From a virus, in the IMG/VR virus record IMGVR_UViG_3300048527_000014, positions 1 to 20,537 of that record: a stretch of DNA of 20,537 nucleotides. The stretch is one strand, 5' to 3'. The notes under the pieces were generated by a model. The model worked only from the letters and a program-made list of their open reading frames with translations, was not told the origin of the DNA and ran no database searches. Both the position numbers and the translations under genes were made by a program. Shown one piece after another: positions 17,874 through 17,945 of this stretch; the first letter of the stretch is position 1, and each line of letters starts with the position of its first letter.

Positions 17874-17945
17874 TTACTTGTTCATTACGTACATAGTAAC
17901 TTCAAAGCCAAAACGCATTTCAGTAGCAGCTGGTTTAGTCCACAT
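17874..17945 (-). CDS. pqqA: PqqA, pyrroloquinoline quinone precursor peptide
   Basis: This 23-codon gene begins MWTKPA, contains RFGFEVTMY and ends VMNK. Its length equals that of Klebsiella-type PqqA, and the two residues that become PQQ are in the right places, Glu15 and Tyr19 in the E-V-T-M-Y core. In the known pathway PqqE (with chaperone PqqD) crosslinks the Glu and Tyr side chains, PqqF/G-type proteases release them, and PqqB and PqqC finish the cofactor. None of these enzymes is in the window, so the phage would rely on the host. AGGAG lies seven to eight bases before the ATG. Promoter-like boxes lie upstream and a terminator-like structure downstream, and it sits between tRNAs and an HNH gene like a moron. 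PQQ serves periplasmic dehydrogenases such as methanol dehydrogenase. Confidence 0.92.
   Translation of the reverse strand: [23 protein letters not shown]

Follow-up and report, generated by a model that had tools for sequence, protein, structure and literature searches.

The window, the whole 20,537-nt stretch of viral DNA analysed here, represents 20.5 kb from the genome of an HTVC023P-like podovirus, going by the relatives of its capsid protein, and our main conclusion, to which we assign a probability of roughly 0.8, is that this lytic-type Methylophilaceae podovirus carries a bona fide pqqA gene as an independent cassette, which would feed fresh PqqA into host PQQ synthesis during infection. 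The preliminary description of this DNA had proposed a phage-borne PqqA providing only the consumable substrate of the pathway, and this proposal is now backed by profile matches, by sister phages, by selection, by the lack of pqqBCDE and by the Methylophilaceae-type sequence of the peptide. Its further suggestion, that PQQ-dependent methanol or glucose oxidation would be aided, has been narrowed to methanol oxidation, in keeping with Methylophilaceae, and the glucose part has been dropped.

The 23-codon frame with a strong ribosome-binding site that had been described is indeed present, on the minus strand and with AGGAG at the spacing listed in Table 1, while the opposite (plus) strand across the same positions translates as LLVHYVHSN.... 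The profile search that had been called for gave matches covering the whole model and lying above the curated cut-offs, both with Pfam PqqA (PF08042; 42.4 bits against a cut-off of 21.1, E 6e-11) and with the NCBIfam PqqA equivalog TIGR02107 (40.4 bits against a cut-off of 20, E 2e-10); PHROGs contained no family matching the frame. There are 87 frames of 18-45 aa with an ATG start in the window, and at profile E-values near 1e-10 a chance match among so many short frames is ruled out. Glu15 and Tyr19, four residues apart, are the PQQ precursor residues, and in its length, its ribosome-binding site and its selection as a peptide the gene also agrees with what is required of a PqqA. Judged by its sequence, the frame is a bona fide PqqA of the Methylophilaceae form. 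As to other signals, the pqqA leader of the window folds at -9.2 kcal/mol (z -1.5), a consensus sigma-70 scan called no promoter near the gene, the fold of the putative terminator on its 3' side was no better than that of shuffles and a terminator scan made no call there, and near pqqA Rfam at the gathering threshold returned tRNA only, and so no known riboswitch.

Table 1. Features in and around the pqqA gene of the window.
Feature	Position	Strand	Evidence and remarks
HNH endonuclease gene	17365..17697	plus	phrog_3106, E 8e-20; convergent with pqqA, on its 3' side
Possible terminator, CCTCTC ... GAGAGG stem then T-run	17778..17831	minus	sequence reading; low confidence
pqqA CDS	17874..17945	minus (17945→17874)	23 codons + TAA; translation and PF08042/TIGR02107 matches
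Shine-Dalgarno AGGAG	17953..17957	minus	sequence; 7 nt before pqqA ATG
Inverted repeat GTGTAC-ATCCA-GTACAC in pqqA leader	17968..17984	minus	putative 5' hairpin or operator/repressor site
Tentative -10-like TATAAA	17995..18000	minus	by-eye reading
Conserved upstream element AATTCATGATTTTACGTATG	18021..18040	minus	22.0 bits; next best in window 11.6
tRNA-like gene, long variable arm, loop TTTGAAT	18045..18129	minus	Rfam tRNA-Sec 27.1 bits (gathering score 47)
tRNA-Pro(TGG)	18134..18211	minus	ARAGORN; Rfam tRNA 60.7 bits
Major capsid protein gene	18260..19168	minus	PF25209 53.5 bits, phrog_371; precedes pqqA, clade-defining

The gene sits in genuine phage DNA, the window copy being flanked by the capsid gene and other structural genes. 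The capsid protein is 64-71% identical to those of Pelagibacter phage HTVC023P and Planktothrix phages and 55% identical to that of Roseobacter phage CRP-901, and further phage genes of the window encode a head-packaging stabilization protein (phrog_3287) and a lysis peptidase (VanY); a structural-looking protein with tandem repeats of VTGVSATGQLG is encoded at 8975-9739 on the minus strand. When 8.4 kb of this DNA were compared by megablast, no close relative among phages came up, and no methanol dehydrogenase gene was found in the window. Between the tRNA-Pro gene and pqqA, directly upstream of the pqqA element discussed below, lies a tRNA-like gene with a CCA end, for which ARAGORN made no call and which reads as a Ser-like tRNA, tRNA-Ser(TGA). 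The host of the window phage was probably a member of the Methylophilaceae, as suggested by pqqA itself and by its control element.

A look into related phage genomes, also proposed at the outset, found pqqA in nine Methylophilales phage isolates and in more than 120 IMG/VR viral contigs. When the 23 residues were compared by tblastn with 50,697 phage records, matches were obtained with the isolates P19250A, Venkman, MEP301, MEP401, MEP402 and four Melnitz strains (the nine being those that match in this collection) and with one uncultured podovirus (MW202481), the rest of the records giving no match except for two Acinetobacter bins. These two, named 'Acinetobacter phage MD-2021a' (CAKLQF020000010.1 and CAKLQH020000055.1), were rejected as bacterial chromosome, since they contain a whole pqqABCDE and polyphosphate kinase (ppk), and represent bacterial contamination within the phage collection. 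The carriers comprise a siphovirus type (P19250A/Venkman), MEP301, Zobellviridae (MEP401/402), T4-like Kyanoviridae (Melnitz) and the HTVC023P-like group of the window, and belong to unrelated phage groups; complete isolate genomes are among them, and a whole-record search of 19 carriers found a single PqqA in each.

The IMG/VR contigs were collected by scans with degenerate DNA patterns. The PqqA frame was present in 120 of the 120 matches listed in the first scan. The pattern of the second scan does not reach codon 15, which makes this set unbiased for Glu15 and Tyr19; here both residues, as well as a stop directly following residue 23, were present in 120 of the 120 matches listed. The two sets overlap. 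The placing of Glu and Tyr at 15 and 19, first read from the window, thus extends to the unbiased viral copies among the matches listed. Grouping of the contigs by shared ORFs proved unstable, single linkage chaining them into one large group and stricter thresholds yielding 40-87 groups, and for this reason no lineage count is given beyond the isolates. More divergent viral forms of PqqA were also seen (loci L013, L022, L027, L033, L034, L037 and L088), whose source could be phages that infect other methylotrophs or methanotrophs.

Within the capsid clade of the window, pqqA is an accessory gene and not a core one. Among the 80 loci whose capsid genes come closest to that of the window (87-96% identity) it was found in two, in the DNA covered, some of these loci ending too soon past the capsid gene for its presence to be judged, and with most capsid relatives lacking it in the DNA covered, the gene is dispensable for the clade in general. 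In both carriers, L251 (the nearest sister, 96%) and L260 (90%), pqqA occupies the same place as in the window, shortly past the capsid gene, and the leader of L251 is nearly the same as that of the window base for base. Absence of the frame from sister phages had been named beforehand as a ground for abandoning the idea, and on this point the outcome is divided, the frame being intact in the closest relatives and absent from the majority described above.

As tRNA genes are common attachment sites and pqqA adjoins tRNA genes in both the window and Melnitz, the conserved stretch could in principle be a DNA or RNA element, such as an attachment site, a recombination site or a small RNA, and not a peptide gene. 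We regard this as barely credible, given that the pqqA-bearing sister loci L251 and L260 have no tRNA and that the peptide stays the same between phage pqqA copies whose synonymous sites are near saturation (pS about 0.58-0.69). The sister loci in which no tRNA was found number 32.

Phage pqqA is under strong purifying selection. In the pattern-unbiased viral set pN/pS was 0.07 over codons 15-23 (bootstrap 0.044-0.093), and over all pqqA codons it was 0.16. A Shine-Dalgarno-like 4-mer accompanies 164 of 165 viral copies, against 4.8% of background windows, and of the 145 viral contigs in which a gene was called on either side of pqqA, 52 have pqqA in antisense orientation to the two flanking genes, so that these copies need a promoter of their own. 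It may be argued that the gene is a passive hitchhiker, host DNA brought in through recombination or assembly error and of no benefit to the phage, since pqqA is multi-copy in hosts and so easy to acquire, and is accessory in the clade of the window; this is nevertheless very improbable in view of the one copy per genome in complete isolates from unrelated lineages, the low pN/pS, the ribosome-binding site intact in nearly all copies and the retention of the control element. The same data bear on the possibility that the phage peptide is a decoy or inhibitor, occupying PqqD/PqqE and thereby lowering host PQQ or redirecting electron flow, which would accord with a phage PqqA that comes without its enzymes and with the capacity of a short peptide to titrate PqqD. 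Loss of Glu15 or Tyr19 is what one would predict for a decoy, yet the PQQ-forming residues are kept in all 120 unbiased copies among the matches listed, the whole motif is held by selection and the peptide is letter for letter a host PqqA, so that we give this possibility very little weight.

A further feature of the phage leaders is an inverted repeat ending about 20 nt before the ATG, which with arms of at least 7 is found in 23% of phage copies compared with 6% of shuffles, a modest enrichment, and which is a candidate for a 5' hairpin or an operator/repressor site. Inverted repeats such as TATACAC-N-GTGTATA were seen in loci L053, L074, L089, L110, L346, L360 and L363, with paired changes between phages.

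On the host side, the Methylophilaceae-form PqqA query matched, by record titles, essentially only Methylophilaceae in the genome collection. Of 116 Methylophilaceae host copies, 35 have exactly the peptide of the window, and the pqqA DNA of the window reaches up to 97% identity with host copies, nearest-neighbour identities being used because a 69-nt gene has too few sites for a tree. PqqA was detected in 185 of 187 Methylophilaceae genomes, with a mean of 4.0 copies and up to 12 (mean 2.4 in genomes under about 1.4 Mb). Multiple copies of pqqA with a single pqqBCDE had already been noted, stand-alone copies being common in Methylophilaceae (PMC4109929), and five copies that are unequally expressed have been described (PMC9851590). 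Since most Methylophilaceae host copies also stand alone, linkage to pqqBCDE is no strict criterion for a PqqA.

The sampled host genomes have PqqC, PqqE and PQQ alcohol dehydrogenases, and with host genomes as positive controls neither PqqE nor PqqC was found at the family cut-off in 20 whole phage records, the window included; PqqB-E were likewise absent from every viral pqqA locus examined. It follows that these phages supply the consumable substrate only. In a 72-kb viral contig (IMGVR_UViG_3300025120_009955) pqqA is accompanied by a gene for a PQQ-dependent alcohol/methanol dehydrogenase, a combination also known from the Baikal phages.

Upstream of most phage pqqA genes lies an element of about 17 bp (consensus TTMATGRTTTTMCTTA, 16 bits); it was present in about 86% of 120 non-redundant phage upstream regions, at a position near -93 relative to the ATG. 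In phages this element is specific to pqqA: at more than 14 bits it occurs within 250 nt upstream of 108 of the 157 phage copies having that much upstream DNA, against 15 hits elsewhere in the phage contigs in 2.8 million strand-bases, and with a limit of 170 nt instead the figures are 109 of 166 copies and 15 hits elsewhere. The same motif procedure applied upstream of other genes in those contigs yielded only coding-like motifs of about 7 bits. The element is not peculiar to phages, a notion that had arisen from its presence in 1 of 116 host regions when 100 nt of upstream DNA was considered and that was rejected once longer regions revealed it in hosts too: the phage-trained motif is found at more than 14 bits upstream of host pqqA in forward orientation in 49 of 118 cases and in reverse in 25 of 118. 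Its distance to the ATG is about 70-100 nt in phages versus about 120-140 nt in hosts, and phage pqqA seems to be a host-derived expression cassette with a shortened leader, not a coding sequence alone.

The host element is palindromic, e.g., CTAATGATTTTCATTAG, and lies in either orientation upstream of Methylophilaceae pqqA paralogues such as those at L132, L144 and L168. Its palindromic form suggests a dimeric regulator, and it may be regarded as a candidate operator for PQQ control; by eye, it resembles a Fur-family box. We also lean, with a good deal more reserve than in our main conclusion, towards a broader reading, in which unrelated Methylophilaceae phages would repeatedly hold the complete host-type pqqA cassette together with a putative site for a host regulator, host PQQ control would switch on the viral gene, and pqqA would be near-universal in, and diagnostic of, methylotroph phages, overlooked by gene callers for its length.

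According to the role proposed here, the phage cassette, consisting of a host-type control element, a short leader, a ribosome-binding site and the 23-codon gene, would allow fresh PqqA to be made from the phage gene during infection; host PqqD/PqqE would cross-link Glu15 to Tyr19 of this peptide, a host protease, PqqB and PqqC would then complete PQQ, and PQQ would load methanol dehydrogenase (XoxF/MxaF), the enzyme through which carbon and energy enter the host cells. Each PQQ made would use up one PqqA, whereas the host enzymes last longer and are reused, so that a substrate gene alone would be the cheapest way to keep or raise PQQ supply once host transcription falls. PMC9851590 cites 70-80% conversion to PQQ when PqqA was added to a cell-free system. 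Transcription, translation and processing of phage pqqA, a PQQ boost in infection and a benefit to phage yield are predictions drawn from sequence. Being genuine phage DNA with a close host homologue and a place in a host pathway, phage pqqA fits an auxiliary metabolic gene, the window's own host being the predicted one.

The same peptide might instead have another job, in signalling, in defence or counter-defence, or in a redox role apart from the PQQ pathway, as a PqqA-annotated peptide family co-expressed with defence systems in ocean data could suggest (PMC11118758). That evidence is correlative and concerns bacterial genes, while the carriers found with the PqqA query are methylotroph phages whose sequence is exactly the substrate form, which makes such a job quite unlikely compared with the provision of PqqA for PQQ synthesis.

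OM43 and Methylopumilus are abundant methanol oxidisers of coasts and lakes. If PqqA provision is indeed its role, a gene for the substrate alone would show how cheaply a virus can sustain a cofactor pathway, and phage pqqA would serve as a sequence tag by which methylotroph viruses could be recognised. Direct testing is open to the phage-host pairs already in culture (Venkman and Melnitz on H5P1, P19250A on LD28), the medium published for OM43 having PQQ in it at 1 nM, and the common upstream element exposes a candidate control site of Methylophilaceae pqqA genes. The annotation of published methylophage genomes also needs correction: pqqA is annotated in none of the isolates nor in MW202481, and the records of MW202481 and Melnitz show a spurious CDS across the gene on the opposite strand. 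The likely reason why the phage gene went unannotated is the lower limit on gene length that gene callers apply by default, about 90 nt, which the 72 nt of pqqA do not reach.

Phage PqqA has been reported from Lake Baikal VP_266, one T4-like genome, along with a phage methanol dehydrogenase, in a study in which P19250A was said to encode none of those genes (PMC7678222); contrary to that statement, P19250A does encode PqqA. Viral pqqA/E/D are listed without detail in a 2026 reservoir paper (PMC13188868), and the papers on Melnitz, MEP301, Venkman and MEP401/402 do not mention pqqA. In the literature searched (subscription papers and preprints lay outside it), phage pqqA was reported in detail once before, and neither in the phage group of the window nor in the isolates, which answers the doubt raised in the preliminary description as to earlier reports: the gene was known from Baikal VP_266, not from this group. 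New are the control element that phage and host pqqA have in common and the occurrence of pqqA in unrelated phage types, including isolates.

Compared with known systems, the window gene is like bacterial PqqA of the Methylophilaceae form (PF08042, TIGR02107) in its length, its E-x3-Y spacing and nearly every residue, and differs from the bacterial Methylophilaceae genes in being phage-borne and in having a shorter leader. With the PqqA of Baikal VP_266 it has in common that it is phage-borne, that the phages are predicted to infect Methylophilaceae and that an aid to methanol oxidation has been proposed (PMC7678222), whereas here pqqA stands alone, occurs in unrelated phage types and comes with a common control element. 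HTVC023P, the Planktothrix phage Pag-Yong1 and CRP-901-like podoviruses have capsid proteins 55-71% identical over their full length and a related stabilization protein; no PqqA match was found for these phages in the 50,697 records, while in the window phage the capsid gene is followed by tRNAs and pqqA. A functional parallel is cyanophage psbA, encoding photosystem II D1, by which a phage likewise provides the most rapidly consumed component, with the difference that D1 is a protein subunit of a complex and PqqA the consumed ribosomal precursor of a cofactor.
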